64,000 nucleotides of DNA, from positions 118,380,331 to 118,444,330 of the forward strand of contig CM037585.1 in assembly GCA_021018995.1 (NCBI GenBank). Direction: 5' to 3'. The DNA comes from Chloranthus sessilifolius. Lineage: Eukaryota > Streptophyta > Magnoliopsida > Chloranthales > Chloranthaceae. This document shows positions 421-55,543 of this stretch, in pieces. Below the pieces are notes generated by a model. The model did not search any database, was not told the DNA's origin, and was given only the letters and a program-made list of their open reading frames with translations. Positions within the stretch are counted from its first letter, which is position 1; each line of letters starts with the position of its first letter. The translations under genes and the position numbers were made by a program.

Positions 421-518
421 GTCGATCGATTGACTCTTTGGTGTCAATCGATTGACAAAGCAGTGCTTACAACCACAAAACACAGTCAATCGATTGAAGT
501 AGAATTCTCAATCGATTG
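421..518. repeat. Two palindrome pairs in Athila leader
   Basis: Cores CGATCGATTG (423-432), CAATCGATTG (445-454), CAATCGATTG (487-496) and CAATCGATTG (509-518) form two pairs. Within each pair the start-to-start distance is exactly 22 nt, and the 12-nt spacers are unrelated in sequence. The location matches the array in element A's leader (55270-55543). Confidence 0.9.
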
Positions 519-571
519 ACTGTTAAAAACACACAAATCCCTATCCGAATTAATCAAAATTTTGCCGATTT

Positions 572-588
572 TCTCGGCAACGGCGCAA
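572..588 (-). other. Primer-binding site, tRNA-Asp type (mutated)
   Basis: On the minus strand this reads TTGCGCCGTTGCCGAGA. The intact site in element A is TGGCGCCGTTGCCGGGGA, the complement of the 3' end of plant tRNA-Asp. Three or so changes suggest an old copy. It lies a few bases inside the LTR end, as expected. Confidence 0.8.
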
Positions 589-594
589 AAAACT

Positions 595-2094
595 TGATCG
601 ATTTTAAATGTAACCCTTGCAAGTGCATAAAATCTATTGTAGTATGGCAAGAACAAGGGTGTCGAACCCACAGGGAAACGTGAATTTTAATTAATTCTTT
701 CAGAGATTTAAAACGTCCCCAAAGAAGTACCAAGGGGCAGATTCAATATACCAAAAATTTATCACACTTTTCCTAAATACAAGAGAAATAAATTAATCTA
801 AACAACTAATTACTGATGAATCTAAGAACAATATTTAAAGATGATCAAGGAATATGCTGCCCCAGATTAGTACCCCTTTTCTATCATTAAAATCCACAGT
901 TTCATTAAAGCATCATTCGTCTAGAAAAATAATTCGTAATAAAATATGATCATCAATCCGGCATACCCTATCTAAAAACAATGACTCAACCTATCATTGC
1001 GGTATGACTCATAAAAGAAGCATAGCGTATCTCATGATGTTTAGATCACAACAATAAATATATAATCGCTCTGCAGCCTAGATCAGCCTGCAGGTCCAGA
1101 TCTAACGATTATAGCCGTTGATACGCGCAATCAAAGGTCATAACAAAGCATTCAATATATTTTCAATAACACAAACTTTTAGCAAAACGATTCCATGATG
1201 ACAATAATAGACTGCGGTATTAATCATAAAAAATTGCTACTTATCTGGGGATCGCATCTTCCCCGATCAACGGATTTAACCGCTCATCCTTGGTGTATGA
1301 TTTCCTTGTTCATTCAAAGTCATTCCACTTTTCATTTCTTCTAAAAGATCTTTGTTTACAATGCTTTCTCCTAAATACAATTTATGCTTAAAAGAAAATA
1401 ATATAAATCCTAAGTACAATCTACCCAAACCAAAACCCTAGAAGAAGGAGAAGAGAAAACCCTTGAAAAGATGAAAAGAATTCCCCCAAAAATTCCCAAA
1501 GTGTATCCTCCTAAAGATGCAAAAATTCCTTTATAAAAGAATCCCCCCAAGCAAACTCATAGCTTCCAATTTATAGGGTCGAACAAACCTAACCCTAATA
1601 ACCTCAATCGATTGAGAATTAAATCTCAATCGATTGACTTTTAAGTAGGGACAAAGTTGTCTTCATGTGTCAATCGATTGACACTTAGTCCTCAATCGAT
1701 TGACATCTAAAAGCAATTTCTGTGAACTCCTGCCCAACTTTGCATCAGACACTGCCTTGGTATTTTAGCTATAACTTTCTGTTTCGAACTAGGATTGAGG
1801 TGATTCATACGGTGTTGGAAAGAAGACGACAAGCTCTACAACTTTTGTGTTTTAGAAATGTCGTAAATCGGACGTCTTGAAGGTCCAAATTAAGCTATAA
1901 GTCACACTAAGTTCTCGGTGACTCAAAATTACAGTGTTTTGACATTATTTTCGGAATTCTTGGGCGGTTTTAGAAACTTGGATTGTATTTACCTGAAACA
2001 CTTTAAATCTAGTAAATCTCATCAGATAGCCTTCATTGGACAACTAAATATAGGTATTTAGGGGTAAAATATCATCATATTTTACTACTCATCA
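595..2094 (-). repeat. Athila 5' LTR (about 1.5 kb)
   Basis: Read on the minus strand it starts TGATGAGTAG at 2094 and ends in CA at 595, next to the PBS. It is homologous to the 1.6-kb LTR at 52833-54431. The neighbouring sequence beyond 2094 is unrelated, so this is an insertion edge. The internal palindromes differ from those of the homologous LTR (see 1605-1702). Confidence 0.85.
1605..1702. repeat. Two palindrome pairs inside Athila LTR
   Basis: CAATCGATTG occurs at 1605-1614, 1627-1636, 1671-1680 and 1693-1702. Both pairs have the exact 22-nt pitch. The homologous place in the LTR of element A (about 53219-53252) holds a pair with different palindromes but the same pitch. Confidence 0.9.
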
Positions 2095-3766
2095 GGGCCC
2101 TGTGACTCGCTCACACGAGGACTTAAGTGACTTGAGACTCGCTCACGCAAGTCCTCGCATGACCATCAGCAACCGACCATTCCAGTCGGTCGCGCGAGAA
2201 AAGCTGTGTTTTGGGCTCGCGCGAGAAACAGAGTCAGATTTATTTGGATTCTTGTGATGAGAATTCTTTGGAAATATATATCTTTAGGTTTTCTTATGCA
2301 TTCCTAAGGGATATTTTGGACACTTTGAATGTAGGATTAAAGTGTTGAGCTTGCGTGTGAGTTCTTAGGAGAGCGATGCATGGAATGTGATGAGCGTGAT
2401 TTGAGGTAGGGGATCTTCAATGAAAAATTACATGTTCGACTTTGGTTCATAGTTCCTTGATATAATTGAATATGATAAGTTTGATTGTGTTTGAACTTGT
2501 ATTTGAATTCTTTGAAATTAGAACTAGAATTTTATAAATTTAAATATGAACTCTGAAAATTTGTAGGAGAAATTCAATGCTTATTGAACTTAAATCGTGA
2601 TTTGTAAAGATGCATTTGATACTGTTTGATTTTAAACAGCCATTGATATTGTTTTGAGCTTGACTCGTACGATGAAAGTTAGATTGTGAAATGGTTTTTG
2701 AACTCGTTTGGATTGCTTTGACTGCCTTAGAAAGATGTGAATTATTGATGCTTGGAAATGTCGACTAACTCGACGCTTGGACTTTTGACATGAAACTTGC
2801 ATTATGAATCCTTTGAATTCTTTTAACTGCATCCCTTGGAGCTAGTATGGCGGCATAATCCGTACATGCATTCATACATACACTGCATATGCATCCCTTG
2901 GAGCATCATTCATCCCTTAGAAATATCATGCATCCCTTGGACAATCATTGAACCTTAGACACCCTTGAAAACATTGAAACACATTGGACACATTGGACAC
3001 ATTGGCAACATTGAGACACCCTTGAAGACATTGAGACACCCTTGGATACATTGTGATACCCTTGGACACCCTTGTATAGTTTTGGTTGCAAATTTGGCAT
3101 TGTTTGCAAGTGTGATTGAAACTTAGATACCCTTGGATAAGACGGACTGTTTTAAAACGATCTTTTTATCGATACGGTTTTGATGAAACTCCGTTTTGAA
3201 AAGTAAATGACACTTTGAAGTTATGTTTGAAATGAAAGAAAATGATAAATGCTTTGAAACTCAGTTTTGAAAGATGGTTTTAACTCATATCATTGAATCT
3301 ATGATTTACAATGATAAAAATATGAATTTATATTGGATGTCCTCTACTGAGCTTAATTGTTAGCTCACCTTGACTATACGTCACAGGTATAACACTTATC
3401 AGGACACCGGACTTGTGGATTGAGGACTTGAAGATTTGTAAGATTTCCAGGATCGTAGATTATGTACTTTATGGAGTTTGGTAAGTTCGGACTCGGTACT
3501 CCTTGTACTTGTATACCTATTGTATACCACTATTTGGTGATGGTTGGACATCACCGGTGATTTGTTTTAGTTTACTATTTTTGTTGCATGTTAGAACTTG
3601 AGTTTTTATTTTATGTCATATGTTTGTACCAAGAATTTCTATATCAGATTGTGATCTACGATCTGGCGGTCTGAATTTTTTCATTGATTTTGTATGTTGG
3701 AAAAATTCTTGTTGTCACACGGATCTCCAAGATAGTGTTTTCACATGATACGGGGTCCCCAAAACA
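2095..3766 (+). mobile_element. Probable degenerate LTR remnant (Del/Tekay-like)
   Basis: No gene is visible. A segment near 3350-3400 (an ACTGAGCT-type motif followed by GACTATACGTCACAGGT) closely resembles one in the LTR of element B near 43550-43595, which suggests a solo or truncated Tekay-type LTR in plus orientation. Its left part was lost or displaced by the Athila insertion at 2094. A possible end is the CA near 3766. No PBS was found after it, so a solo LTR is the best reading, but the boundaries are uncertain. Confidence 0.4.
2822..3075 (+). repeat. Degenerate minisatellite (catcccttgga / cattggacac)
   Basis: Repeated short units CATCCCTTGGA, then CATTGGACAC and GAGACACCCTTG, run for about 250 bp inside the probable LTR remnant. 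Units are 10-25 bp and imperfect. Small open frames crossing it are not meaningful. Confidence 0.7.
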
Positions 3767-6319: not shown

Positions 6320-6322
6320 ACA

Positions 6323-6457: not shown

Positions 6458-6464
6458 ACATGGC

Positions 6465-6585: not shown

Positions 6586-6590
6586 GGCAT

Positions 6591-8301: not shown

Positions 8302-8390
8302 GAAGCGTTTACGCTTCTCTGTAGAAGCATCATCGTTCCATTACGGAGCGTTAGCGCCTCTATCTTGAAGCGTCAAAGCTCCTACAGGGA
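8302..8390. repeat. GAAGCG palindrome array, 22-nt pitch
   Basis: Four units of the type GAAGCG-T-TTACGCTTC, each a degenerate palindrome, start at about 8305, 8327, 8348 and 8370 (core G positions), that is 22, 21 and 22 nt apart. Non-coding. Confidence 0.8.
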
Positions 8391-8652
8391 ATAAAAGGTG
8401 CCTACAATATGACACGTAGTAACTTTTTGTTGACACGAAATTTTTTTTTGTATGAAGCGATATTTGACCTTTTATCATTTATTACTGTTGTCAGAATCAT
8501 AAATGAGAAGTGGGGCGAAGCGAAGAAGAATATTGTTTCTAACATCGTGGTTTACAATGACCATCATTATCATTTGAAATGACTATTTGAGGCGGCCCTT
8601 CAAAAATACCATTTTTGCCCCAATTTTTATTATTTTTTGGCTCTTCTATTAC

Positions 8653-8735
8653 GAAGCGCTAGCTCTTCTGACAAGAATCGTCATCACTTCTTTAACGGTG
8701 TGCTAGCGTTCTATCATGAGGTGTTAACGCTCCGT
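8653..8735. repeat. GAAGCG palindrome array, 22-nt pitch
   Basis: Units with cores at about 8656, 8678, 8700 and 8721; the first contains the palindrome AGCGCT next to GCTAGC. Same family and pitch as 8302-8390, in the second ~300-bp repeat. Confidence 0.8.
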
Positions 8736-10895: not shown

Positions 10896-11063
10896 GGCGG
10901 CATAGCTTCTCTCATCCCTATTCAGTCAATCCCCTTGGGATGTTACAACTACCATCACCGAATCCAAATATTCCGTCTGAGCTTCTAGATCCTCTATCCG
11001 TTCCCTTGTCGAATGCCGTCTGGTATCTTCACTTGTTCCATCCACCTCAGCCATCTTAACTTA

Positions 11064-12061: not shown

Positions 12062-12176
12062 GGAGCGCTAACGCTTCTTTCATGGTGCGTTAGTGCCTCT
12101 GCACCTCTATTTAGAGGCACAATCGCTTCATGTAAGGAGCACTAACGCTTCTTATTGAAACCATCAGTGCTTCTAT
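12062..12176. repeat. GAAGCG palindrome array, 22-nt pitch
   Basis: Units with cores at about 12065, 12087, 12117, 12139 and 12161, in one run of two and one run of three, each at 22 nt. Lies just upstream of the first recognisable coding segment of the DUF1985 pseudogene. Confidence 0.8.
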
Positions 12177-12337
12177 CTACAACGAGGAAGCAACGACATT
12201 CCTTTTTTATATCTTCTTTTGTAACTTCTTATGATTCACAAATTTTCAAGATGGTTACAAGACCCCAGCGAATAAGTGTACCATTGTGAAAGTGTCGGTC
12301 GATCTACAACGAGGCCACTGAAGATAGGAAAACTCTG

Positions 12338-12960: not shown

Positions 12961-13169
12961 ATTTCCTATAAATCCCATAAAAATTTCATCAATATGTTCT
13001 TCCTCAGATCTGAGCATACGAGATCAACCCGAAGAGCGCCCCAACGAGGGTTGAAGGCATCGCCCGTTTTCCAAGGTTACTGAAATGAGAGGTAAATGAG
13101 AGTACGAGAAAGTTCTACATCAAAGACTTTGACTATAAGGTAATTTCTATACAAGGTGATATCGCTTTC

Positions 13170-13380
13170 CAACCGAGGAGCATTCACTTCACATTAGAAG
13201 CGATTGCACTTCTACTACGAGGGGCAATCTCTTCACATAAGATGCGATGGCACGTCTACGTCGAGACGCAATCATTTCACAGAAGAAGCGATAGAGCGGC
13301 TATTTCTAACATGCATTCGCTTCTTGTAAGAAGTGATGGCAGGGTTACGCTAAGGCGCAATCGCTTCATAACGAAGCGAT
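13170..13380. repeat. Long GAAGCG palindrome array, 22-nt pitch
   Basis: About nine units. The unit ends (TTC-type) fall at about 13212, 13234, 13256, 13278, 13300, 13323, 13345 and 13367: a nearly uninterrupted 22-nt ladder. It lies between two coding segments, that is, in an intron. Confidence 0.8.
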
Positions 13381-13695
13381 GTCGATTTTCTTAATTCTTT
13401 ATCATTCATCAATAATATGGAAAATATATATTCTTGTAAGCCTTTCGGGAACTGGAGTGCACACTCTATGAGAAGACCCAGCTTGTGATAGAAGATTTAT
13501 TGCGATCAGAGCAGAGATCTACAAAAGCGGGTAAAGGACCTATTGTCCCTCTCATTATTGTGTGGAGGAAGAGGTCAGACATTGATGATATTGACCTAGA
13601 GGAAGAGGAAGAGGGAGAAGAAGAAGAAGAGGCTCCCAAAGCTCGTAAGTTCATGAAATCACAGATTGTTGAATAATGGATGCAATCTGCAGATG

Positions 13696-15070: not shown

Positions 15071-15319
15071 AGATGCAAGAATTACAAACTGTCAGAGATT
15101 AGTCAGAGAGTGGAGTACAAGTTTCGACGACCTCAGACTACAGGTTCTCAAGCTTGAACAAGAGAACTAGAAACTGAAGCAACATAATGCCCAAGTCTTG
15201 AAGGAGCAGGGCTATATGAGGCGGCAGATGATCCTGATCCTTCAAGATTAAGCCTGTCTGTGGATCAATTGAAAAAAATATCCAAGGTATGCTATTTGTT
15301 TAAAGCTTATGATGCGATG

Positions 15320-15430
15320 TGTCAGCGCTTCCAAATGACTCGCTACGAAGCATCGACGCATCGTTTATGAAGTGTCAACGCTTCGTTTATGAAGTGTCGA
15401 CACTTTGTCTATGAAACACCGACATTTCTT
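15320..15430. repeat. GAAGCG palindrome array, exact 22-nt pitch
   Basis: Units beginning GAAGCATCGACG, GAAGTGTCAACG, GAAGTGTCGACA and GAAACACCGACA follow each other at exactly 22 nt (cores at about 15350, 15372, 15394, 15416), with a TTTAT-type spacer. Intron position. Confidence 0.85.
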
Positions 15431-16439: not shown

Positions 16440-17075
16440 AGGAGAATGTAGCTTTCCTCCTTGCCGACATAGGGGGACTATGCAAGGCTTATGCCCAATT
16501 TTTGATGCGCAACATGGCACCAAGCCAATGGCGTGTTTCCTCATCAATAAGAATCACGCATTGTCTGCGATAGACTGTGAAGAGATATTTATTCCAATTC
16601 ACATTGACCAGCCACTCCACTGGGCGCTTGCTTTGGCCACCTCCTCAAACCATTAGATCATTGTCGTGGACCCTTGCCCGAACCAGCATCCGGCCTCCAA
16701 ATTTGCGAAGGAGATCAGGGCCCTAGTAAGATTGAAGAGCCTCCAAAGAAGCGATTGAAGCGCTAGTGCTACTAAGTCGAAGCGTCGACGCTTCTTATCG
16801 GTAGCATCGGGGCGTCAGTACCCCCAAAGCTTCTCTATCGTTGCATCAGGGCCCCGCCCCCTTGTATTTTCTAAATGTCTGTGTAACCTCTCTCCATTTT
16901 TTTTACAGACGTAGTATTTGCCTGCCTTATTATATATGCACGACGCAATAGATACAATTTCTGGGGAATATCGTTGAAACTGTTTGGGTGTAAGTAACGC
17001 ACCATACTAAGGAAACGGTTATGACTGTGGGATTTTTGTGATGAAGTACGTTGATTATTTCAGTAGTGACCTCCA
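16440..17075 (+). pseudogene. Ulp1 (C48) catalytic core of the above
   Basis: SUMO-protease-like cysteine peptidase core. FIPIHIDQPLHWALA has the catalytic His at 16618-16620; VVDPCPNQ holds the Asp; NGYDCGIFVMKYVDYF holds the Cys at 17026-17028. The GAAGCG array at 16745-16850 separates the His/Asp exon from the Cys exon, which marks an intron. An in-frame stop follows the His motif and a one-base shift precedes it, so the enzyme cannot be made as read. Confidence 0.75.
16745..16850. repeat. GAAGCG palindrome array in Ulp1 intron
   Basis: Units such as GAAGCGATTGAAGCG and GAAGCGTCGACGCTTC, the latter a perfect 16-bp palindrome. Same family as the other arrays of this relic. Confidence 0.75.
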
Positions 17076-17439: not shown

Positions 17440-17725
17440 GCAGAAGCGCCAAAGCTTCTTATTGGTAGCGCTGAAACTTCAATGTCGAAGTGCTGACGCC
17501 CATTATTGGTAGCGCTAGCACTGCTTGGTAGAAGCGACAAACCCCATTCAGTGTAGCAGTAGAAGTTAACACCATACACAATCGAATTTACCCAATGACG
17601 CGTCAGCGCTCCTTATTGGTAGCGCTAACGCTTCTTCCACGACGTGCGAACGCTCCCTATTGGTCGCACTGGTGCTTTTCTTTGAAGCGCTCCTTATTGG
17701 TAGCGTTGGCATTCGTCTCAATAAT
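17440..17725. repeat. GAAGCG palindrome array, paired, 22-nt pitch
   Basis: At least four pairs with cores at 17446/17468, 17490/17512, 17600/17622 and 17644/17666, all exactly 22 nt apart. In this array the spacer TTATTGGTAGCG is itself repeated. Confidence 0.85.
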
Positions 17726-18459: not shown

Positions 18460-18625
18460 CAAATAGGCGCTCAGGCTTCTAAACGAAGCATTGACGAAGC
18501 TCCCATGCATCATAAACGGAATGCCAACTCGTTATCATTTTGTAAACGAGGTGTCAGCGCTTCCAAGCAAAAGCACCCACGCTTCGTATTCGAAGCATCG
18601 TCGCTTCCAAATCGAAGCGATTGCA
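18460..18625. repeat. GAAGCG palindrome array
   Basis: Degenerate units including GCGCTCAGGCTTC, GAAGCATTGACGAAGC and GAAGCGATTGC. The first two are 21 nt apart. Last array before the transposase pseudogene. Confidence 0.7.
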
Positions 18626-18689
18626 CTTTTCATAAAATTGAGTCAATGTGACTCTATAATACTACACTTTCCATCGTCCCCTATTCTCT

Positions 18690-21409: not shown

Positions 21410-21640
21410 TTGATCAATCGAGTTTGGAGATCGATCGATTGATTTATGAATGATAATTCACAGTATGCTCACAGGTTGAAATTGATTGACCGAGTTTGAG
21501 AAATCGATCGACCGATTTCCTACTGATAATTTATTGAATGTTCACGAGTTGGAATCGATCGATCGAGTTTAACTGAAACGGGTTTTGAAAAATCTCGAGA
21601 AAATCGATCGATCGAGCTAAGAAATCAATCGATAGATTCT
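21410..21640. repeat. ATCGATCGAT-type palindrome pairs in D LTR
   Basis: Pairs GATCAATCGA (21412) / GATCGATTGA (21433), GATTGACCGA (21484) / GATCGACCGA (21506) and GATCGATCGA (21606) / a degenerate partner at 21627 are 21, 22 and 21 nt apart. A further ATCGATCGATCGAG stands near 21556. Same pair architecture as in the Athila and Tekay C/B elements, with a different palindrome. Confidence 0.8.
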
Positions 21641-26310: not shown

Positions 26311-26312
26311 TT

Positions 26313-29259: not shown

Positions 29260-30729
29260 CTAGGTGGTCAGGTCAGGAGCTGCTGCATGTGGAAGGGTCT
29301 CTGCGGAGTAGTAGATGTGGATGTGGAGGAACCGCGTCCAGGTGGGATGGAAGATCGGTCCTGTATGGAAGGCGGTGCGTCGGGCCGTCCACTCTTCTTC
29401 GCGGGCCAACATATCCATGTAGGTGTGGGGGTAGATGAACTGGAGGGTGTGAAACATGAGGAAATCAATCCTCCTGTTCATCCTCTCATTATTTGCGTCC
29501 ATTTCGGCCGACGTCCTCTATGGTAGGATCGGATGGAGCGGGCCAAGTGTAGGATGAGGTGGAGTCGCGCGTGAGTGTGCAGTGGTGTCAGCGTGGCGTG
29601 GTGTGGGAGGGAACCCTCTCCATGGATGGCTCGGCTGGCGGTGTGCCCCACCCTCAAGTGGGTCCCTGAGGTGGTGGGGTGGTGGCGGTGCTATCAGCTG
29701 CTGCCGCTTCTTCTTCTTCTTCTTTGGGCTGCTGGGCGGGAGCGGGACCCGAGCTGGTAGGGTCCGCTTCAGTTGTAGCTACGGGTCCATGAAGACTTTG
29801 TGAATGTCTTCACGCGATCGTAGCCCTCACCTCGTGAGGTGAGATAGTGTAGGAGGGATCGTTGAGTAGCACTCCAACATGCTTGAGATGAGCCGAGCAT
29901 CGGCATCTTCTCCTTGGGCCGCATGTTGCCCTTCATCGCTTTAGTCTTGATGTACCGCATCCCTCAAGGATGACCTTGGTAGCATCAAACCACCGACCCT
30001 GAAGGCGCGTAAAGTGCATGTTGCACTTTGTCGACACGCGTCGGTGTAAAGGTTGCATTTGATTATGGAGTCGAGCATCCACATGTAGGGTGGAAGATCA
30101 ACCCTCTTGATGGAAATGCCCGACCCCTTCTTGCCATTTGTCATGAGGGTCATGACTTCCTCAAATCGGGGGTCTTCCACAAAGGGTGGAAATAGGGTAG
30201 TCTCGGGGGTGAACTCGAGGTAGCACTCGAGCACCTCGTGAATGTGACGCCGAGTGATCGTGTAGAGACGACCCTCGATCTTGGTGATGATGCAGTCGTC
30301 GGTAGGGCCATTGATTAGCCCTTGGTAGAATAATCTCACCAATCTAGGGTAGTAGGAACCCCGGATTGGTTTGAGAAGATTGCCGAGACCGGCATTGTTT
30401 ATGTAGTTTTGAGCCCATTGGGTCTCGCCCGGTACATCGGGATCGGTGAAAAGGGTAGGGTCGATGGTATATTCGACCTCAAAGGTCTTGGCTGCCCACC
30501 ACTCGTTTGGTTGCTCCACGTTGGTGGGTGGTGGTGGCATGGGGGTGGATTCGCGGGAAGACTCGCGCGTAGATGCGCTCGTCGAACCGGAGGTGGTCTC
30601 CGATTCCGACGGTGTCGGAGTCCTCACCGGCGATGGGGTAGGTGGTGGTGGTGCGGCGTTCTTACGCCTAACCGGCAACTTGGAGGTTGCCTTCTTCGAA
30701 GATAAACGGGTTTTGGGCGGCATGTTCAC
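29260..30729 (-). CDS. Element C extra ORF (aORF), 'putative plant transposon protein' type
   Basis: Lies between pol and the 3' LTR, same strand as pol. The first 262 codons (30729-29941) are open: MPPKTR start, basic KLPVRRK, a Ser/Thr/Pro-rich linker, then NEWWAAKTFEVEY, LGNLLKPIRGSYYPRLVRLF, a GRLYTITRRHIHEVLECYLEF segment and RVDLPPYMWMLDSIIK. A one-base shift then leads to FDATK, YIKTKAMKG (from 29960), a Pro-rich part and a C-terminal segment with DFLMFHTLQFIYPHTYMDML (to 29260). Collinear with the aORF of element B (49856-51290), so the product is about 480-490 residues. The YPRLVRLFY ... MPY.HLIS pattern resembles the plant domain named 'putative plant transposon protein' (Transposase_32 in Pfam, from memory). 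Function unknown; not integrase, RT or env. Plus-strand frames here are shadows. Confidence 0.75.
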
Positions 30730-30935
30730 TAAACTAGGGTTTATCTAGCTTGAATTGAAGAAAAAACGGAAATCTAGGGTTTACCTTAGGTTTCGGAGGC
30801 GAATGCGGCGAAAAACCCAAACCCTAGAGCACTCGGTTGGTTGGAGAAGAAGGAGAAGATGAAACGCCCAAAAAATCCCAAGCCAAATGATTTCGAATGG
30901 GAAATGAAATCCCCAAATTTATTTATATAGCCCGC
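30730..30935 (-). promoter_or_regulatory. Putative promoter, 5' UTR and intron of C aORF
   Basis: Minus-strand TATATAAAT at 30929-30921 is followed by a CTTCTCCTTCTTCTCC pyrimidine patch, AAACCCTAG-type plant 5'-UTR motifs and a splice-donor-like AAG-GTAAACCCTAG (GT at 30784-30783), all before the ATG at 30729. The same order is present before the aORF of element B. Confidence 0.55.
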
Positions 30936-30938
30936 GGC

Positions 30939-31390
30939 TCGATTAATCGAAATTCCATTTCGATTAATCGAAATTCAAAACTAGGTTAAGCCGCGTAAAA
31001 TCGATTAATCGATTTCTCAAATCGATTAATCGAAAATAAAATTCGATTAATCGAAAATATTTCGATTAATCGAAATCGTGTTTGTTTAAAAATTTAAAAT
31101 TTTGAGCTCATCGGCGTGCGATCGAAATTCATTTCGATTAATCGAAATCTCAAAATCGATTAATCGAACTTAGTTTGATTAATCAAATCGTCTAAAAACT
31201 TCAAAATTTTCCAAAATTTCCTTAAGTATTCGATTAATCGAAATCCCATTTCGATTAATCGAAATTTCTTCTATGCTTAACTCAACTTTTCATTTCCAGA
31301 CACTGGCACATGCCAGTCGTCTACTCGAACAAGATCGAGTAATCGAAATTGCAAATCGATTAATCGATTTGAAATTCGATTTATCGATTT
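30939..31390. repeat. TCGATTAATCGA array upstream of C aORF
   Basis: About fourteen units, mostly spaced 19-22 nt in groups (for example starts 31002, 31023, 31044, 31063). It fills the gap between the end of pol and the TATA box of the aORF. Confidence 0.9.
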
Positions 31391-36487: not shown

Positions 36488-36491
36488 ACTG

Positions 36492-39137
36492 TGACAGCCC
36501 GGATTTCGGCACCCCGAAACCCGTGCCATCAGCACGATCATCTTGACCGTGCCCCTTAACTATGCACGGAACACTGGTATATCAAGCATAAAAAGAAGTA
36601 AGAACAACTCATGAATTTAAATCTAATTAGAAATACTTTTCAAAAGAGTTCTACCCTCATGCCCCTACATGAAGGAGAACGATCCAACCATCGATGATAT
36701 AAATCATCACGATGGTTCCCCAAAGAATAATCCAAACTCTATACATATACATGTTTTCACAAAATAAAGGCTTGACATACCAAGCCGTACAAACTCTCAA
36801 AAACTCCTCAAAGTAGCTGTGAGTCCTCTAGAAGTCCTCTCGAGGTGGCTCCAACTCCTCGCCGGCCGAAAGTCCGACTCCGGGATCGGCGTCCCTGAAA
36901 CCTCGTGCTACTAATGGACTAGGGTGAGCTACATCCTAGCCCAATAGGAACAAACACTGCTTGAACATATAAGTTATAACTCACATATATTCTATGATAT
37001 ACCATGCATGATGTAACTATGCGATTGTTGATAAAAGCGATTAAAAGCATTCGTTTCTTGTTGATTTCTTATGTTTTCATTTACTCATGAAAAATCTTTG
37101 AAAAGGCCTAAAGCAAAACTTAAACTTTCAACTTAAGTAATCCCGAGCAATATAGCATCGAGCCCGATGAGCTACCCTTCATCGTCATCTATATGAGCAG
37201 TTTTAATGTATTCCACAGGAATACCATATAGTACCAAGCCCCTTTCCACAGGGATTGGTGGCGAAATTTCACTTGTCTCAATCAACACCCACAGGGTGTG
37301 CTTACTATGTCTGGATAAGCCTCACTTGGCAGCCTACGGTTTGCCCGTATCGGTCCACGGATATCCTGCCCGTGTCGATCGTGGATATCCCATGCGTCGG
37401 TGGGGTAACCTAAGGAACCTCAAATAACAAAAATATCGATTGCCTTACATATAGTTATTCACCGTGTAAGTGTGCTATCTTATATCGATTAGGCCCTATC
37501 AAACATGATTCAATCTGTGGATACATCACAGGATGTATCCATTAACACATCACGATGCTCTTATCTCTTACTTCTTCATCCCACAGGGATGGCTCATTCG
37601 TTACTCTTATGAATGTCACACACACACTTTTCACAATTCTTTGGCGGTAAAAATAATTGAATTGAAATTTATATCACTACATACATGCTCTTGTAAAATA
37701 AAGTACATGTTCAAGGTGTTCCCTACCTCAAGTCTTTTGATTCAATGCATCAGGTCCCACGTGGCTCCTTGTGCACTAGCTCACGTACCACCTATGGTAC
37801 CACATAAGGTAAAACACATCACAAGGGATGCAATAAAGAAGGTATAAGATCCTCCAAGAATCTTGAAGTCAAACCTAAAAGTCAACAAAATTTATCGATT
37901 AATCGAAATCCGAATCGATTAATCGAACTTGGTTCGATGTCGTTTTCCAAAATCGATTAATCGAAGGTCAATATCGATTAATCGAAGTAATTTCGATTAA
38001 TCGAAATTCTCCTTTAATAAGTAAACTCACTCGCTCGACGATTGAGTTTCGATTAATCAATCGAATCAGGTTTCGATTAATCGAAATCTTCTTCAAAGAA
38101 CACTTACTATTGAGCAGTTCGAGATTCCATTCGATTAATCGAATTCAGTTACGATTAATCGAATGCTTCTGTTCGCAAAGTTCTCTTACAATTCGAACAG
38201 TTCGAGTTTCTATTCGATTAATCGAATTCAGTTTCGATTAATCGAATCTCCTTTTCAGAAAGTACACTTCATTGAGCGATTGACTTTCACAAGTCGATTA
38301 ATCGATCCCAATTCGATTAATCGAAAACTAAATCGATTAATCGAAATCCCATTTCGATTAGTCGATTTTTCCTTAAATCATTTCCTCCAACCCTTGGGGT
38401 CCACTGGAGGTTCCCAGTCGATTAATCGATTTTCAAATCGATTAATCGAAATCCAAATTCGATTAGTCGAAATCCAACTCGATTAATCGAAATCGTGTCT
38501 TCTGACCTTTCAACTTCCTGGCCAATTTCGATTAATCGAAACCCAATTTCGATTAATCGAAATTGTCGATCGACCCTTCTGTTTCTTCCCAATCTTTTCC
38601 CATACTTTTCCTTTATTTTCTAAACCATTATCCTATGATTTAACCCACATTTAACCACAACTTAACCCCTATGATCTATGCATCTTATTTACAAGAATTT
38701 ACCTTGGATAGATCTCAAGTTGATTTCTATCGCTAGTTGGAAGGCTAGGGTTTCTAGCTTTGGCTCTAACGGATCCCTTGCGTCGAATCCGGCCTTCTTA
38801 ATGCTTGACTCCTTCTTCCAAACAGTTGCAATAACTCTTCTCTCACTCCTCTCTCTTTCTCTCTCTTCTTTACTTCTCTCAACCACAAAAACATGAAAGT
38901 TAGGGTTTTCACCCTTTTTATTTTATTTCTTTTCTCGGTGTGGAACACATACACACCCCTCGGTGTATGTTACTCTACACACCCTCTATCTCTCCACTCT
39001 TCTACACTGGTTCACACATCACATCCGCTCATCTCACTTTAAGTTCATCTTTGAACTATCTTATGGTCAAACCTAAGACCAATCGGGCACGGATCCCGAG
39101 GTCATAGTTTAACGTGATTTTTTTTAGGGCTATTACA
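36492..39137 (-). repeat. Element C 5' LTR
   Basis: 2646 bp, plus-strand reading TGACAGCCCGG ... GGGCTATTACA. Pairs with 26313-28945. Confidence 0.9.
37895..38565. repeat. TCGATTAATCGA array in C 5' LTR
   Basis: About 21 units counted by eye; unit-to-unit distances inside groups are 19-21 nt (for example 38132/38152, 38215/38235, 38295/38314/38334/38355, 38419/38439/38460/38480, 38529/38550). Confidence 0.9.
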
Positions 39138-41683: not shown

Positions 41684-44071
41684 TGTAACATCCCCGAAAA
41701 TTTGGGCTTCGAATAGTATCCTCGAGATACATGCCCGACTGGTCGTAAGTTTTACCAAGTGAAAGTCAACTTAATAAATTAGGCTAGACTAGGCTTGAGA
41801 TGAAAAGTACACCTAGGTGTGTGGTGTGGGTCTTGTTATAAGGTCACATACACCTGTTATAGGTGTGTGTGCTTTACACCAAAGAAGTGGAATGGGTTAA
41901 ATAGGTATTAGTTAAAGAGAAGTTATTTCTCTTTGATTTTGGTGGTTAGGAATTTATGAAGAGAGAGAGAGAGAGAGAGGAAGGGAGAAGGAGTAAATGC
42001 TAAGGATTTGGTGTGGAATTTCATATTTGAAGCCATACGTGGGCGATTAATCTCGAAGGCAACATGTGTAAATTCGTTGGAGTCGAAGCTAAGAACCCTA
42101 GCTTTTTACCCAAGTCATTAAATCACTCATGCTATGGATTTGAGGTGAGATTTCATTAATTTATGATGTGTGTGATGTTGTGCATGAATTTATTGAATTA
42201 ATGATGAATTAGATAAATAGAAAGAGTAAAGATATGAGAGAAAACAAAGTTGGAAGAACAGCCCGAAGAGGGCTGTTTTCTGACAAAATAGATTTATTGA
42301 ATTTAGAATTGATTAATCGACTTTTGTCAGAAATCAATTTTAGAGACTAAAGCACGAAACTGATTAATCGAAATTAATTCGATTAATCAATTTTTAATTT
42401 TTGATTAATCGATTTGGAATAGATTACTCGACAGGGTACTTTCAGTGGCTAGAAAAGTCTGAGTTTTGGAAAATCGATTAATCGATTTTGGAATTTCAAT
42501 TAATCGATTTGAGATCAATTAATCAAATTTTGGAATTCGATGAATCGATTTTAACAGTTTAGTGTGGGTTCTATTTTTTATCGCGGAGTTCTGGGAGGGC
42601 CTTGTACCCTTCTTTCTTGCATCGTTCTTGATGTTTTGTGTATGACATGATGTACTTTAGGTTGAGCACTTAGAATTTAAGCATGTTGAGCTACCTTGGA
42701 CCTTGATGCTTGGGGTTGAAGCACGTGAGGTAGGAAATAATTTGAACATGTACCCTTGATTACAAAATCATGTATGTAGTGATGTGATATGTACATGTAT
42801 GTGTTACGAGCATAGTCATTCGATTGTTAATCGAAATTGAGCTTAAGAATATGAATTTAAGATGCGTATGTGTGTGTATGTACACTGAGTAAGAAACCAG
42901 TAAGCATATAAGTGCATGACATCCCATGGATATATATGAGATGTGAGCATCTAAGTGATGCATATGAGTATGTGACATCCCAGGGATGCATAGTCAAATG
43001 AGAAACTATGTGAATGAGCCTTAAACAAACTTGAAATATTATAATTAGCACAATTACACGGTGATAAACTACATGTATTTTGTACAATTGATTTGAGGTT
43101 CGTAGAATATCCACCGACTTGGTGGTATACCCGTGACTGACTCGACAGAATATCCGTGATCGGTACGACGGCCAATCCGTACACCAGTAAGACATCCCAG
43201 GGATGTATATGAGTTATGTACCCCATCGCCCAGGAGAAAGGGACTTGGGTTATGTTACATTGAAATATAGTTCAATTGGACGACGATGGTGGGTATTCCA
43301 TCGGAGTTCGATGCTATATTGCTCAAGGATTATTTAAGTTATTTGATTTAAGTTTCAAAACCTATCTTCTAGCCCGTGTGAATAAGTTGAAAACAAGTTA
43401 ATACATGTAGAGTAACGGATGCATTCAGTTCATGCTTTCAGTAACTTAAATTATTTTCCAGCTATCTTTCATTGATAAATCATATTTCATAATGCCATGG
43501 AATATATGTGAGTAAGATAGACTTATATGTTCATTCAATTATTTCCCTACTGAGCTATGATGTAGCTCACTCCTTCGACTATACGTCACAGGTCCAGTGT
43601 TAGCGGTTGCTGCTGCTTCGGGAGACATTGATCCAGAGGATTCGAATTACGTGTCTGGGGATGAGTCAGAGCCCCCTTCTGAGGATTTCTTCTAGAGGAC
43701 CCTCTGCGTACTTTGATTATTTTGTGAGAGAGATTATACGGCTTGATATGTCCAGCCTTTTGTATAAGATAATGTAAATTTTGTTAAATATTCTTTTGGC
43801 GAACCATCTGGGGTGACGGCTGTTTAGTCACTGATGATTCAAGTTGGTTCTTTTGCTCATGCAGTGGCATGAGATCAGAACTATCTTTTGGGCTATATGT
43901 TGTTGGCTTTATCTTATAGAATTAGATTTTTAGTTCTGTATTAGCTCTTTAGTGTATGTTTTGCTTTCTAGTTGTGTGAATATACCAAATGTTCCGTGTA
44001 TGTGTATGGGGCATGACCTCGAGAGTCATGTCGATGGCGCAGGTTTCAAGATGCCAAAATTCGGGCTGTCA
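41684..44071 (+). repeat. Element B 5' LTR
   Basis: 2388 bp, TGTAACATCCCCGAAAATTTG ... TTCGGGCTGTCA. A (GA)n run lies at 41959-41980. Matches 51700-52832 up to the element A insertion. Confidence 0.9.
42296..42552. repeat. TCGATTAATCGA array in B 5' LTR, degenerate
   Basis: About nine units such as TCGATTAATCGA, TCAATTAATCGA, TCGATGAATCGA. Several neighbours are 22 nt apart. A matching array stands in the 3' LTR at about 52310-52575. Confidence 0.85.
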
Positions 44072-49057: not shown

Positions 49058-49600
49058 GAGCATATTTGTATCATTGCATGTAGTTTTGTGAACTTGACGT
49101 GTCTATGTAAGCGAAAGTCAGCATGTATACATTAACCTTATCAAGGGAATGAAGAGGAAGATATTATTTATAAATTGATCTTTTATGAACTTCGGCATGG
49201 TCATCAAGAATGTGTATATAGCGTGAAATAAATGAATGTCACACCTTGATTATAGGTTTGTGGTGTAGTAATATATAGCAAGAAGCAAAAGAAAAGTCAG
49301 CAAGTGAATAAATTAAATTCTATAGGGAATATGAAAAAACAAAGAAGCTAATGAAGAAAAAAAATCAAAAATATGAATTTTTATAGTTTCTGTCAAAATC
49401 GATTAATCGATTTTGATTTTTCAACTAATCAAAAATGTTCCGATTGAACGACTAGCTCACATCAATGAGCTGAGGAACCTAGAAAAAGTTTTGAAGTTAA
49501 ATTCGACTAATCGATTTTTGAAACCAATTAATCAATTTCGGGCAACTGAGTTAGAATTGTGAGAACTTATTAATCGATTTTAAAAATCGATTAATCGATT
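49058..49600. repeat. Spacer with TCGATTAATCGA array upstream of B aORF
   Basis: No frame of interest. From about 49398 it carries about six units (TCGATTAATCGA, TCGACTAATCGA, TCAATTAATC-type), the last two 21 nt apart, ending just before the TATA-like box. Same place as the array at 30939-31390 in element C. Confidence 0.8.
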
Positions 49601-49855
49601 TTTTCCTATAAGTAACAGTTTTGGAGAATTTTCTCCCCATTCGAATTTCAAATTGTTTTTTTTTATTTTGGGCGCCTTTCTTCTTCCTTTGGCCGGAGAT
49701 AACCGAGAGGGTTTAAGGACCTTGGGAATCGAGATCGGATAAAAAACCCTAGCCATCGGATCCATTGCGCACGGTAAGCCCTAAATCTAGAAATTCTTAC
49801 AGTATTTTGAGTATTATAAAGCCCTATATTTAAATTTCTAGTTTAAAACCCTAGA
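49601..49855 (+). promoter_or_regulatory. Putative promoter, 5' UTR and intron of B aORF
   Basis: TATAAGTA at 49607-49614, then CCCCATTCGAA, TTTGGGCGCCTTTCTTCTTCC, AACCCTAG motifs, and a donor-like ACG-GTAAGCCCTAAATCTAG (GT at 49774-49775) with AACCCTAG before the ATG at 49856. The CATTCGAA, TTTGGGCG, CTTCTTC and GGTAA-CCCTA blocks recur in the same order before the aORF of element C. Confidence 0.55.
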
Positions 49856-51290
49856 ATGCCTCCTAAAACCCGGCAAGCTTCGAAGCAAGCGGCTTCTAAA
49901 ATACCTGTACGGCGTAAGAACGCTGTGCCACCACCGCCATTACCTTCACCTTCACCTTCACTTCACTTTCACTTTCCTCTTCGTCATCATATTCGGCGGA
50001 GGCGTCATCGCACCAGTTGTCACCACCACCACCTCAACCCGGCCAGTTACCACAACCTAATGAGTGGTGTGCCGCGAAAGACTTTGAGAATGAATATATT
50101 ATCGACGAGGCTCTGTTTCTGGATTCCGAGGATGAGGGCGAGACGAAATGGGCCCGAAAATACCTCATTGATGCGGGCCTCGGTAATCTCTTGAAGCCCT
50201 TGCATGATTATTATTACCCTAGGCTAGTTAGGTTATTTTACCAGCATTTGCAAGAGGGTAGGAAAGCTGGCACCATTACGACCGAAATCGATGGTCGTAA
50301 GTATCTTTTTAGCCTGCGCCACATTCATGAATCTTTGAAATGTTTTTCGGTATACGTGCCAAAGACCAACCCTTTACCCCCTTTCGAACAGCCCATAAGT
50401 TTTGAAGAAATTAGGACCAAAATGACCAAGGGAAATAAAGGGTCTGAAAAGTCCATTCGGAGGGTTGACTTACCCCCTTATACGTTGATGCTTGACACCA
50501 TTATTAAGTGAAGCCTCTACCCTCTGCGCCATGACACTAAAAGGGTAGAGGGGGTGCATAGGCAATGTACGCAACATACCGAGGCTGTTGGTTCGACGCT
50601 ACTAAACTAGTGTTGGAGGGCATGATCTATATCAAGGGTAAGATGATGAAGGGACCCTTAAGATCGAAGGAGCGTATGCCATATGCTCATCTTATTTCTA
50701 GCATGATTGAGTGCTACTCTGCTGTCGTCAAGTATGTTATTTCTCCGACCAAGCCAAGGGCTACAAATCATGTCAAAAGTTATTCCATTGCTTCCTGGAG
50801 CCAAAGCTACAATCTTTTGAAGAAGGTGCTACCACCGGAGGGAGCAGCACTTGCTCACGCTGGTGATGCCCCACCATAGCAGGACCAACCAGCAGTGGGG
50901 GAGCAGCCTCCTGACCCTGTACAGCCTGCAAAGCAGCCTCTTGCACCACCTTCTACTCCTACGCAGTCTGCTCCTGCTACTGCTATGTGGTCTCACAGGA
51001 GACGGGCATCTCAAGCCCCACCACCCGGTACTATAGATGACGTCCTCGCCCTCATGGTAGAGAACAATCGCCAGATGCTAGCGCACCACAGGCGTACGGA
51101 AGAGAGCAACACCCAGATGAACTACCGGCCTGATTTTCATGAGGCGCTGCTATACCAGACCATGCAATATATGTATCCCAGCGATTACCATCAACGCATA
51201 GCGGCAGCGCGGACATGGACTCCTAACGCATCAAGTTTGAGTACACGTGAGCACGATGGGGAGGATCAGCCAGGGGATGGGACTGCTTGA
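49856..51290 (+). pseudogene. Element B extra ORF (aORF), 'putative plant transposon protein' type
   Basis: Three overlapping frames give one product collinear with the C aORF. 49856: MPPKTRQASKQAASKIPVRR. 50017-50511: NEWCAAKDFENEYIID, LGNLLKPLHDYYYPRLVRLF, DGRKYLFSLRHIHESLKCF and RVDLPPYTLMLDTIIK. 50565-51290, with one stop at 50877: FDATKLVLEGMIYIKGKMMKG, MPYAHLISSMIECYSAVVK, a Pro/Gln-rich linker, DDVLALMVENNRQMLAHHRR and HEALLYQTMQYMYPSDYHQR. Two frameshifts and one stop make it a pseudogene here. The linker and tail look like a flexible region plus a helical end. Function unknown; the family match is from memory. Confidence 0.75.
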
Positions 51291-51699: not shown

Positions 51700-52832
51700 T
51701 GTAACATCCCCGAAAATTTGGAATTTGAATAATATCCTCAGGATACATGCCCGACTGGTTGTAAGTTTGACCAAGTGAAAGTCTACTTAATAACTTAGGC
51801 TAGACTAGGCTTGAGGTGAAAAGTACACCTAGGTGTGTGGTGTGGGTCTTGTTATAAGGTCACATACACCTGTTATAGTTGTGTGTGCTTTGCACCAATG
51901 AAGTAGAATGGGTTAGATAGGTATTAGTTAAAGAGAAGTTTTTTCTCTTTGATTTTGGTGGTTAGGAATTTATGAAGAGAGAGAGAGAGAGAGAGAGAGA
52001 GTGAGGAAGAGAGGAGTAAATGCTAAGGATTTGGTGTGAAATTTCAGATTTTAAGTCATATGTGGGCGGTTAATCTCGAAGGCAACGTGTGTGAATTCGT
52101 TGGAGTCGAAGCTAAGAACCCTAGCTTTTGACCCAAGTCATTAAATCACTCATGCTATGGATTTGAGGTGAGATTTCATTAATTTATTATGTGTGTGATG
52201 TTGTGAATGAATTTATTGAATTAATGATGAATTAGAAAAATAGAAAGATTAAAGATATGAGAGAAAACAAAGTTGGAAGAACAGCCCGAAGAGGGCTATT
52301 TTCTAACAAAATCGATTAATCGATTTTTGTCATAAATCAATTCTAGAGACTAAAGCACGAAACCAATTAATTGAAATTAATTCGATTAATCAATTTTTAG
52401 TTTTCGATTAATCAATTTGGAATCGATTACTCGACTGGGTACTTCCAGTGGTTGGAAAAGTCTAAGTTTTGGAAAACTGATTAATCGATTTTGCAATTGC
52501 GATTAATCAATTTGAGATCGATTTATCGAATTTTGGAATTCGATTAATCGATATTATGATCGATTAATCAATTTTGACAGTTTAGTGTGGGTTTTGTTTT
52601 TGACCGCGGAGTTCTGGGAGGGCCTTGTACCATTCTTTCTTACATCGTTCTTGATGTTTTGTTTATAACATGATGTACTTTAGGTTGAACACTTAGAATT
52701 TAAGCATGGGGAGCTACCTTGGACCTTGATGCCTGGGGTTGAAGCATGTGAGGTAGGGAATACTCTAAACATATACCCTTGATTACGAAATCATATATGT
52801 AGTGATGTGATTGTACATGTGTGTGTTATGAG
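51700..52832 (+). repeat. Element B 3' LTR, left part
   Basis: Matches the 5' LTR from 41684 to about 42810 with scattered substitutions and one small insertion. Contains (GA)n at 51975-52002 and a palindrome array at about 52310-52575. Cut off at 52832 by element A. Confidence 0.9.
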
Positions 52833-54431
52833 TGATGAGTAGTGAAATATGATGATATTTCACCCCTAGATACCTATATTTAGCTATCCGATGAAGGCTA
52901 TCTGATAAGAATTATTAGATTTGAAGTGTTTCAGGTAAATACAAGCCAAGTGCAAAAAACAGCCCAAGTTTTCAAAAATAATGTCAAAACACTGTAACTT
53001 TGGGTCATCGAGAACTTAGTGTGACTTGCAGATCCATTTGAACCTTCAAGACGGCCGAATTATGATATTGTCAAAACACAAACGTTGTAGATCTTTCTGT
53101 CAGCCTTCCAACGGCGTATGAATCGCCTCAATCTGATTTCAGAACAGAATGTTATGGCCAAAATACCGAAGCAGTGTTTGATACAAAGTTCGGCGGAAAT
53201 TCACAAAAATCTGGGAGGTCGATGCATCGACCCTATTGGGTCGATTAATCGACCCTAAATTTTCGAGTTGGAACACCTCTGCGGCTAGGAAACTTTGGCT
53301 CTATTTAAAGTGGATCAAACACTTCGAGAAAAGAGGAATTAGATATAGGAATTAGAGGAAGGAGAGATAGGAATTAGAGAGAAAAATTAGAGATAGGAAT
53401 TAGAGAGAAAAATTAGAGATAGAGAATTAGAGAGTTAGTTTTAGCTTTTTCTTTTTTTTAGAGTTTTTGGAGAGAATTTTTTAGAAGATTATTATTCATT
53501 ATTATTATTTTTTGTTTTAGACTCCTCTTGGCATCTTTTCAAGAGTTCTTCTTTCTCTTTCTTCTAGGGTTCCATCTGGGTAGATTGTACCTAGGATTTG
53601 CATTGTTTTTTCTTTACGTTAATGAAAGCATAGATTGTATTTAGGAAAAGGCATTGTAAACAAAGATCTTTGGAAAAAATAAAAAGAGGAATGGCTTTGA
53701 ATGAACAAGGAGATCATACACCAAAGATGAGCGGCTAAATCAATAGATCGGGGAAGATGCGATCCCCAGATAAGTACCCTTATTTATGATTAATACCATA
53801 GTCGATTTATTGTCATTATGGAATCATTTTGCTAAAAGTTTGTGTTATTGAAAATATATTGAATGCTTGTTATGACCGTTGATGGCGCGTATCAACGGAT
53901 ATAATCGCTAGATCTTGACCTGCAGACTGATCTAGGCTGCAGAGCGAATATGTATTTACTGTTGTGATCTAAACATCATGAGATACGCTATGCTTCTTAC
54001 ATGACTCATACCGCAATGATAGGCTGAGTCATAGTTTTTAGATAGGGTATGCAGGATTGATGATCATATTTTATTACGAATCATCTCTATAGCTGAATGA
54101 TGGTGTGAATAATGCTTTAATGAAACTGTGGGTTTTAATGGTGGAAAAGGGGTACAAATCTGGGGTAGCATATTCCTTGATCTCATTTAATTATTATTTT
54201 AGATTCATCGGTAATTAGTTGTTTAGATTAATTTATTTTTTTGCATTTAGGAAAAGTGTGATAAATTTTGGTAAAATTGAATCTGCCCTTTGGTACTTCC
54301 TTAGGGACGTTTTTAAATCTCTGAAAGAATTAATTAAAATTCAAGATTTCCCTGTGGGTTTAACACCTTTGTTCTTGCCATACTGCAATAGATCTTGTGC
54401 ACTTGCAAGGGTTACACTTTAAAATCGATCA
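52833..54431 (+). repeat. Element A 5' LTR
   Basis: Starts TGATGAGTAGTGAAATATG and ends GATCA, six bases before the PBS. Near 53219-53252 it holds the palindromes TCGATGCATCGA and TCGATTAATCGA, 22 nt apart. A short GAATTAGAGA-type repeat lies at about 53335-53420. Confidence 0.9.
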
Positions 54432-54437
54432 AGTTTT

Positions 54438-54455
54438 TGGCGCCGTTGCCGGGGA
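54438..54455 (+). other. Element A primer-binding site
   Basis: TGGCGCCGTTGCCGGGGA, an 18-nt match to the complement of the 3' end of plant tRNA-Asp, the primer used by Athila elements. Confidence 0.95.
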
Positions 54456-54539
54456 GATCGACGAAATTTTGATTAATTCGGTTAGGAATTTTTGTGTTTT
54501 GATTTTTTTTTTTTTTTTTTTTTTAATTCTAAAATTTAG

Positions 54540-55140
54540 ATTTTTGATTTGTAAAATCTTCTTTCCCTTATTTTTCTCTCTTAGGTAAGTTTTGTAGGAC
54601 TCTTTTAGAAAATTTAGGTTTTTAGGACTTCTTATTTTAGTAGGATTCTTTTTCCTTATTTTCCTCTTTTAGATATTCTAGGATTTTCTAAAATTAGTTA
54701 TTAATTTTTTTTTAAGAAGTTTATAAATTTAGGATACCTTCCTTAGGAAATTTAGGAATCTTTTATTCTTTCCCTTATTTTTCTCTTTTAGATAAGATTC
54801 TTAGGATTGCCCTTAGATTTAAAATTTTAATTTCTAATTTTAATTTTAAGTTTTGAAATTCGAATTTAAAAAAAAAAAAAAAAAAAAAATCAAATTTTGG
54901 ATTTTTGCTTTGCGGAATCTTCTTTCCCTTATTTTTCTCTCTTAGGTAAGTATTTTTTTAGGAGTCTTTTAGGAAGTTGAGATTTTTAGGCTTTTTATTT
55001 TAGATTTTGTAGGAGTCTTTTTAGGAAGTATAGATTTTTAGGATACCTTCCTTAAAAAATTTAGGAATCTTTTATTCTTTCCCTTATTTTTCTCTTTTAG
55101 ATAAGATTTTGTAGGATTGCCATTAGGTTTAAAATTTAAT
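54540..55140 (+). repeat. Leader repeats with fused acceptor/donor-like motif
   Basis: About five imperfect copies of TTCCCTTATTTTTCTCTTTTAG followed by ATAAG or GTAAG and TAGGA phrases, at about 54565, 54650, 54768, 54920 and 55078. Two copies read CTCTCTTAGGTAAG, a pyrimidine tract plus AG joined to a GTAAG donor-like motif. Poly-A/T runs interrupt them. Confidence 0.75.
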
Positions 55141-55269
55141 TTTTTTTATTTTAATTTTTGAAATTCGGATTTTTTAAAAAAAAAAAAAAATTAAAAAAAA
55201 AATTAAAATTAATTTATCTTGTTTTGCTTTTCTTTTCTTCTTATTTTGGCCACTGTTCATATTAGAGCT

Positions 55270-55543
55270 CAATCGATTGAAGCTTCAGGTTCAATCGATT
55301 GAGACTGAAATATTCTCTGTCGTGATCTTTGCTTTTCTTTCAATCGATTGACATTCCTCTGTCAATCGATTGACAAAAATTCTGTGCTTGCCATTTCGGC
55401 TGAAATTCCTGTGTTACTTGCTTTGACCTTTGAACCTCAATCGATTGAGAACAGTTCTTCAATCGATTGACTGATAAAGTCATTTCTGTGAAATTTTAAG
55501 TGTGCTTCTGTCAATCGATTGAGATCTTTGCTGCAATCGATTG
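55270..55543. repeat. Four CAATCGATTG palindrome pairs in element A leader
   Basis: Cores at 55270/55292, 55341/55363, 55438/55460 and 55512/55534. All four pairs have a start-to-start distance of exactly 22 nt and unrelated 12-nt spacers. The array ends about 55 bp before the first possible gag start. Confidence 0.95.

Follow-up and report, generated by a model that had tools for sequence, protein, structure and literature searches.

Arrays of a short palindrome, repeated at a pitch of about two helical turns, lie in the non-coding parts of several long terminal repeat (LTR) retrotransposons of Chloranthus sessilifolius. They occur in a stretch of 64,000 nucleotides (nt) from this plant (assembly GCA_021018995.1, contig CM037585.1, positions 118,380,331 to 118,444,330 of the forward strand), here called the window, which represents plant DNA with nested mobile elements. 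The sequence, spacing and position of the arrays can be read directly from the DNA, and both the palindromes and their spacing are genuine and exceed chance by a wide margin. In our judgement the balance tips slightly towards reading the clusters as cis-regulatory arrays, bound by a homodimeric DNA-binding protein that probably belongs to the host. An earlier sequence-only reading of the same DNA is partly confirmed: the palindromes, their spacing and their non-coding location stood, whereas a distance of mostly exactly 22 base pairs (bp) and unrelated spacers did not hold as general rules, and the palindromes did not prove private to each family. All readings given below are based on the sequence of this one window.

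The elements are referred to by the following handles, and the labels Tekay and Athila are names taken over from the sequence-only reading.

26309-28945 and 36488-39137, minus strand: LTRs of E1, a chromovirus, 89.5% alike
41683-42810 and 51699-52832, plus strand: LTRs of E2, an element related to E1, its pol 72-77% like that of E1
From 52833 and from 62497, plus strand: LTRs of E3, an Athila-type element with its primer binding site (PBS) at 54438
1-2094, minus strand: E4, an Athila-type fragment
21.4-21.6 kb: cluster probably contained in the LTR of "Tekay D", an older, interrupted chromovirus-type element
8-19 kb: span of the Mutator-like element (MULE)-like region in the palindrome scan

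In the window, 70 sites match the merged palindrome pattern TCRATNNATYGA exactly, as against a mean of 0.62 and a maximum of 3 in 50 dinucleotide shuffles. None of the 70 falls inside the listed retroelement coding spans (20,054 bp), in agreement with the earlier claim that the clusters are confined to non-coding sequence. The two main forms, TCGATTAATCGA with 46 copies and TCAATCGATTGA with 14, together with TCGATGCATCGA, TCGATCGATCGA and a few asymmetric variants, all fit TCRAT-NN-ATYGA. A motif-free scan, which omitted low-complexity half-sites, ranks TCGAT-2-ATCGA first (53 sites) and TCAAT-2-ATTGA fifth (14), ranks two to four being those sites read in overlapping frames; 20 block shuffles gave no count above 4. 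The half-site TCRAT is common to Athila and chromovirus-type elements, and TCGATTAATCGA is present in E1, E2 and both LTRs of E3; a private palindrome for each family of LTR elements, as had been claimed, is rejected on these grounds. The family-specific recognition code suggested with it fails as well, given that E3 carries both palindromes and that the tobacco element Tnd-1 has the same core in ACAATCGATTGT (PMC2829016). The palindrome pattern had 0 matches in a collection of viral contigs, and the exact pair pattern was found in 81 prokaryote stretches in 257 billion bases versus 12 pairs in the window, the former being a rough background only, as its composition differs.

The spacing is as distinctive as the motif. 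Among 57 gaps between adjacent sites in 11 clusters (a count in which the two LTR copies of E1 and those of E2 each enter separately, and from which the E3 3' LTR pair, one further gap of 22, is omitted), 28 measure 19-22 bp, and none measures 12-18 or 23-37 bp, which upholds the described distance between neighbours. At most 14 gaps fell in 19-22 in 5000 random placements, a control that left the gap of two-site clusters unchanged. That neighbours are most often exactly 22 bp apart is true of Athila and the MULE-like region but not of E1, whose exact-site gaps in this range number 18, 17 of them 19-21. The three larger Athila clusters, taken with one site that has 1 mismatch, contain 13 gaps; 8 of these measure exactly 22, a number reached in 0 of 20000 random placements. 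The Athila sites as a whole form nine distinct pairs (ten with the E3 3' LTR copy), all 22 bp apart.

The spacers had been described as unrelated, which fits Athila best: their mean pairwise identity is 0.333 versus 0.251 when shuffled (reached by about 0.1% of 5000), dissimilar and slightly above chance. Those of E1 are clearly related (22 of 32 listed spacers used), whereas those of E2 (9 of 10 used, not independent because both LTRs are included) are alike at the first three bases and the core and unlike at the last three. The comparison dropped repeats and most 3' LTR copies. Additionally, Tandem Repeats Finder (TRF) reports periods of 19-22 bp and an 83-bp unit in E1. Since the spacers of E1, and in part those of E2, are related, duplication helped build the Tekay arrays.

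The Athila copies show how spacing and sequence can part. Their arrays are as follows.

400..520, minus strand: E4 5' leader, two palindrome pairs with starts at 422/444 and 486/508, pitch 22
1604..1703, minus strand: E4 LTR, pairs 1604/1626 and 1670/1692, pitch 22, TATAAATTG 28 nt downstream in sense
53219..53252, plus strand: E3 5' LTR, TCGATGCATCGA-10-TCGATTAATCGA, aligned with an E4 pair, TATTTAAAG 49 nt downstream
55269..55544, plus strand: E3 5' leader from PBS to gag, with four pairs at a pitch of 22, of which the final site (55533) has 1 mismatch
62884..62917, plus strand: E3 3' LTR, the same pair as in the 5' LTR

Six of the nine distinct pairs thus lie in the leader after the PBS. 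At corresponding LTR positions, TCGATGCATCGA-10-TCGATTAATCGA of E3 stands opposite TCAATCGATTGA-10-TCAATCGATTGA of E4 in an alignment that is locally weak, so that base-by-base orthology is presumed, and the swap is one evolutionary observation, the two E3 LTRs being copies. Each member of the E3 pair is palindromic, yet the two differ at their centre. These copies support the view that the geometry is conserved while the sequence changes. The 22-bp pair was kept across a change of palindrome, which suits protein binding on a single face of the helix more than it suits simple duplication. To the Tekay arrays, tandem duplication also contributed.

The chromovirus-type elements bear longer arrays, and in E1 and E2 an array also precedes an additional open reading frame (aORF).

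27743..28372, minus strand: E1 3' LTR array, 11 exact TCGATTAATCGA sites
37895..38560, minus strand: E1 5' LTR array, 17 exact sites
30939..31387, minus strand: E1 array from pol to aORF, 12 exact sites
30920..30929, minus strand: E1 TATA-like box TATATAAATA, which follows the final palindrome of the aORF array by 9 nt in sense
29941..30723, minus strand: E1 aORF (MPPKTR...), weak match to Transposase_32 (PF20167), 24.7 bits versus a cut-off of 45
42289..42548, plus strand: E2 5' LTR array, 3 exact and several decayed sites
49399..49598, plus strand: E2 array from pol to aORF, 2 exact and further decayed sites, last palindrome at 49587-49598
49607..49612, plus strand: E2 TATA-like box TATAAG, 8 nt past the last palindrome of the aORF array
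49856..50511, plus strand: E2 aORF region, opening with MPPKTR, weak PF20167 match, 19.9 bits
52312..52570, plus strand: E2 3' LTR array
21410..21636, no strand assigned: "Tekay D" cluster of TCGATCGA-type sites

The sites of the last of these are indeed clustered, as had been noted, but ATCGATCGAT occurs only 3 times in the window and no exact-site gap there falls in 19-22; two gaps of 21 bp appear when 1 mismatch is allowed. In both E1 and E2 the last palindrome is succeeded by a TATA-like box, a leader and an ATG that opens MPPKTR. The two elements have this palindrome and a related leader in common, whereas the upstream array parts differ. The aORF frames are 51% identical, and that of E1 begins with a basic stretch; in E2 the long open frame (49918-50511) is in a different frame from the MPPKTR opening. 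Protein searches found no homologue of the aORFs, and neither E3 nor E4 revealed an extra gene 3' of pol. The leaders (30724-30919 in E1, 49613-49855 in E2) both contain pyrimidine-rich stretches and, ahead of the ATG, what may be the beginning of a leader intron (GGTAAACC, GGTAAGCC), features in which they resemble ordinary plant genes.

As a whole, the arrays sit in LTRs, in Athila leaders and in the pol-aORF interval of E1 and E2. A TATA-like box lies within 50 nt downstream of 5 of 12 clusters, or 4 of 9 when LTR copies are counted once (the E4 LTR at 28 nt, the E3 LTR at 49 nt and the E1 and E2 aORF arrays at 9 and 8 nt), as compared with 7.2-7.3% of all positions; the box was defined after the sites had been seen, and the enrichment is suggestive only.

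Protein binding, cooperation of dimers, promoter activity and a host origin of the binder are proposed to fit together as follows. Each 12-bp palindrome TCRAT-NN-ATYGA would bind one dimer, and sites 19-22 bp apart on one helix face would bring two dimers side by side. In the LTR the arrays would work as upstream elements of its promoter; one array in each of E1 and E2 may also serve a separate promoter that drives the aORF. The most likely binder would be a transcription factor of the host, or a small group of such factors, because a near-identical site recurs in Athila, in chromovirus-type elements and in a tobacco copia element. The core that Athila has in common with Tnd-1 speaks for a shared reader. 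Palindrome-linked promoters before the unexplained aORFs would also offer a concrete route to when these frames are expressed and what they do.

Several observations weigh against this proposal. For five of the nine distinct clusters, the first 50 nt downstream contain no TATA-like box; the box is at 221-244 nt in the E1 LTRs and at 358 nt in the E2 5' LTR, none lies within 400 nt of the E3 leader, the "Tekay D" cluster or the E2 3' LTR array, and none was found for the E4 leader, searched to the window edge. Tnd-1, the best match to the motif, is without the TATA motif and the CpG island of the Sireviruses according to PMC2829016. Our confidence in the proposal is limited by two facts: no more than 4 of 9 distinct clusters have a TATA-like box nearby, and Tnd-1 lacks that box. 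Additionally, the palindromes of the two E1 LTRs differ at 22 of 151 columns and the spacers at 48 of 326 (away from gaps), an equal divergence, and no constraint on the E1 sites is visible in this comparison after insertion. In the MULE-like region, arm-to-arm covariation is absent from 36 units (0.676 versus 0.678 shuffled), which speaks against a present site-by-site upkeep in that relic; compensatory change within single units was looked for and not found.

The E1 pair nevertheless retains 20 aligned sites perfect in at least one LTR, 8 of them perfect in both, a count that ignores sites imperfect in both LTRs, of which at least two are visible. The array differs by about 15% between the LTRs as against 5.4% outside it (the alignment of the array is uncertain). 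This divergence pattern implies that the sites were mostly intact at insertion and then decayed like their surroundings; before insertion they were presumably kept up, by selection or by homogenisation. The observed/expected ratio of CpG is 2.48-3.21 in the E1 arrays, 0.65-0.81 in other parts of E1 and 0.98-1.06 in the Athila arrays, at a GC content of only 32-37%. Compared with the 5' LTR, the 3' LTR of E1 has lost four bases singly, three G and one C, from CG positions within palindromes at 27796-28245, which may be either real decay or an error pattern of sequencing at methylated sites.

Growth by duplication alone would make the arrays a by-product, in which repeats of about 20-22 bp and longer units arose by slippage or unequal exchange and the palindrome has no function. 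The TRF periods, the 83-bp unit, the related spacers of E1 and in part of E2, and the large difference of the E1 array between LTRs all agree with this. As the sole cause it is rejected for Athila, whose spacers are nearly unrelated despite a pitch of exactly 22 and whose palindrome changed between E3 and E4 while the pitch was kept, and it is retained as a contributor in Tekay. The recurrence of the half-site across lineages and the 20 E1 sites still perfect in one LTR or both also tell against it, and we hold it quite unlikely as a general explanation. It is very improbable that the palindromes work at the level of RNA, where a pair forms an inverted repeat and transcripts fold into 12-bp hairpins for packaging or dimerisation, or as a source of small RNA. 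All nine Athila pairs do fold as hairpins (-13.3 to -20.0 kcal/mol, values without a shuffled control), six of the nine lie in the leader past the PBS, and palindrome clusters of maize Sireviruses attract small RNAs according to PMC10760457. Yet a hairpin requires complementary arms, not arms that are individually palindromic, and a hairpin-only reading is disfavoured by the E3 LTR pair, whose members are each palindromic and mismatched at the centre. Isolated Tekay sites (e.g., 38073 and 38479) are also still perfect palindromes, and sites upstream of a TATA box would lie outside the transcript of that promoter.

An element-encoded binder, as in the VANC anti-silencing system, is in our view unlikely: the aORF product would bind the arrays of its own element and lift silencing, hence their place at both the LTR and the aORF promoter. 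Arrays precede the aORF in both E1 and E2, the frames share half of their residues (the 51% identity above) with a basic start in E1 and weak Transposase_32 matches in both, and VANC21 is a precedent, as it binds motif arrays in the non-coding DNA of its own family (PMC5735166). Against this, none of the 6 scanned pieces of Athila E3 matches Transposase_32, yet E3 bears arrays, and the palindromic site is common to several lineages. The aORFs are without homologues in the protein searches, and a fold prediction with a mean pLDDT of 37.3 is unusable. The motifs of VANC21 are also set in one orientation in the same source. A wider scheme, in which Ty3/gypsy lineages share a two-turn palindrome code whose dimeric regulator is encoded by some (as the aORF) and exploited by others, linking the gag-pol and aORF promoters in one anti-silencing circuit, is doubtful at best.

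The closest known system is that of the Sireviruses, described by Bousios et al. 2010 (PMC2829016). Thirteen Sireviruses carry 8-32 palindromic boxes in their LTRs, followed by a TATA box, and those with an env gene, nine in number, have additional boxes ahead of it; the boxes are reported to be absent from other Ty1/copia elements. Twelve of the 13 have boxes with a CGG-CCG core, the exception being the tobacco Ty1/copia element Tnd-1, whose box ACAATCGATTGT has the core CAATCGATTG in common with the palindromes here. As in the Sireviruses, the sites are palindromic, have divergent flanks, occur in many copies per element and have extra copies before an additional gene; CpG-rich clusters and an LTR position shortly upstream of a TATA box, also traits of the Sirevirus boxes, are seen here in some elements, the former in E1 and the latter in E3 and E4. 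High copy number, a mark of the Sirevirus boxes, is found in E1 (11, 17 and 12 exact sites), with fewer in E2 and Athila; extra copies before a gene 3' of pol are found in E1 and E2, the aORF being only a candidate for env. Unlike the Sireviruses, the hosts here are Ty3/gypsy elements of Athila and chromovirus type, with a different palindrome in the MULE-like region, and the core is TCRAT-NN-ATYGA instead of CGG-CCG. The 19-22 bp pitch has no mention in the parts of the Sirevirus account considered here. We read the arrays as probably the same kind as the Sirevirus boxes, in new lineages and with a fixed two-turn pitch. As far as the literature searched extends, mostly papers free of subscription, no earlier account shows a Sirevirus-like plan at a strict two-turn pitch in Ty3/gypsy elements.

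In DNA transposons, TnpA of En/Spm is an element-encoded binder of short repeated subterminal sites at the transposon ends. The VANDAL arrays read by VANC proteins are, according to PMC5735166 and PMC10398659, likewise short, tandem, non-coding motif arrays that change fast and differ between families. The VANC21 motif YAGTATTAY is arrayed in one orientation (PMC5735166), whereas the sites here are palindromic; the VANC binder is identified and encoded by DNA transposons, whereas the carriers here are LTR elements, and the motif here is not that of one family, TCGATTAATCGA being in E1, E2 and Athila E3. The short interrupted repeat cassettes (SIRC) of Arabidopsis are similar in having short direct repeats with diverse spacers and a relation to mobile elements including ATHILA and VANDAL, but they have 2-8 repeats, about 57% are without palindromes, and a promoter-linked two-turn pitch is not mentioned in the passages considered (PMC10342631).

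The MULE-like region contains a 16-bp palindrome unit that is distinct from that of the LTR elements. Its arrays, with no strand assigned, and the nearby coding remnants are these.

8302..8733: palindrome units, 22-bp pitch
12062..12202: palindrome units, 22-bp pitch
13153..13388: 11 units with up to 4 mismatches, pitch about 22 bp
15316..15428: MULE-like array
16757..16816: MULE-like array with a perfect GAAGCGTCGACGCTTC
17443..17715: MULE-like array
18548..18629: MULE-like array near transposase remnants
19220-19967, minus strand: SWIM-like and MULE-like pieces, both below the Pfam cut-off

With up to 3 mismatches, 22 of the 33 neighbour gaps of at most 140 are exactly 22, and none of 40 block-shuffle runs, at up to 4 mismatches, yielded more than 2 adjacent gaps of 22 bp. 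The loose motif is only moderately specific, with 44 sites in 8-19 kb versus 42 in the remaining 53 kb, numbers that rise to 92 and 263 when 4 mismatches are allowed. Base-match autocorrelation places lag 22 among the top lags in all four subregions, and lags 44 and 66 in three of them. When 38 units from 11 stretches are folded at 22 bp, GAAGCGCTAACGCTTC-TTATAC emerges, and none of 2000 column permutations is as palindromic. The stretches had been selected by matches to a palindromic pattern, which favours this outcome, although their phase was re-randomised. At 13153..13388 the 4-nt centre tends to alternate in orientation, with a TRF period of 44. DUF1985 gave no match in the Pfam pieces scanned within 5.8-26 kb, a part of all pieces there. 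The piece at 16441-16653, read as IFIPIHIDQPLHWALAL, has no Pfam match and by eye presumably resembles Ulp1-type proteases.

The class of the LTR elements rests on their coding remnants. E1 has a chromodomain match (PF00385, E 1.1e-6, Pfam) and Ty3/gypsy-type reverse transcriptase (RT) and integrase pieces; E2 has one SH3_Tf2-1 piece, to which its chromodomain scan was limited. E3 has a Ty3/gypsy-type pol and a PBS that we take to be Athila-type. Among the best 120 of 8000 listed protein relatives of its RT piece, those that bear names are nearly all from eudicot plants. The search of other genomes gave no confirmed Athila RT relative among 7 matching stretches and no match for the E1 integrase. 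A sunflower study places Tekay aORFs 5' of pol and Athila aORFs, with Transposase_32 similarity, 3' of pol (PMC11728184); the Tekay label is uncertain for E1 and E2 because their aORFs are 3' of pol. Within the MULE-like span, direct repeats at 8814-9487 and 11078-11748 (83%) surround minus-strand gag-like pieces that include a zinc-knuckle-like stretch (9987-10925, read by eye); this is probably the insertion of a small LTR element between palindromes of the MULE-like region. Finally, 13826-15070 and 22598-23941 have an inverted similarity of about 79-82%; they may represent the terminal repeats of a MULE or, alternatively, another fragment of the older chromovirus-type LTR in inverted orientation.

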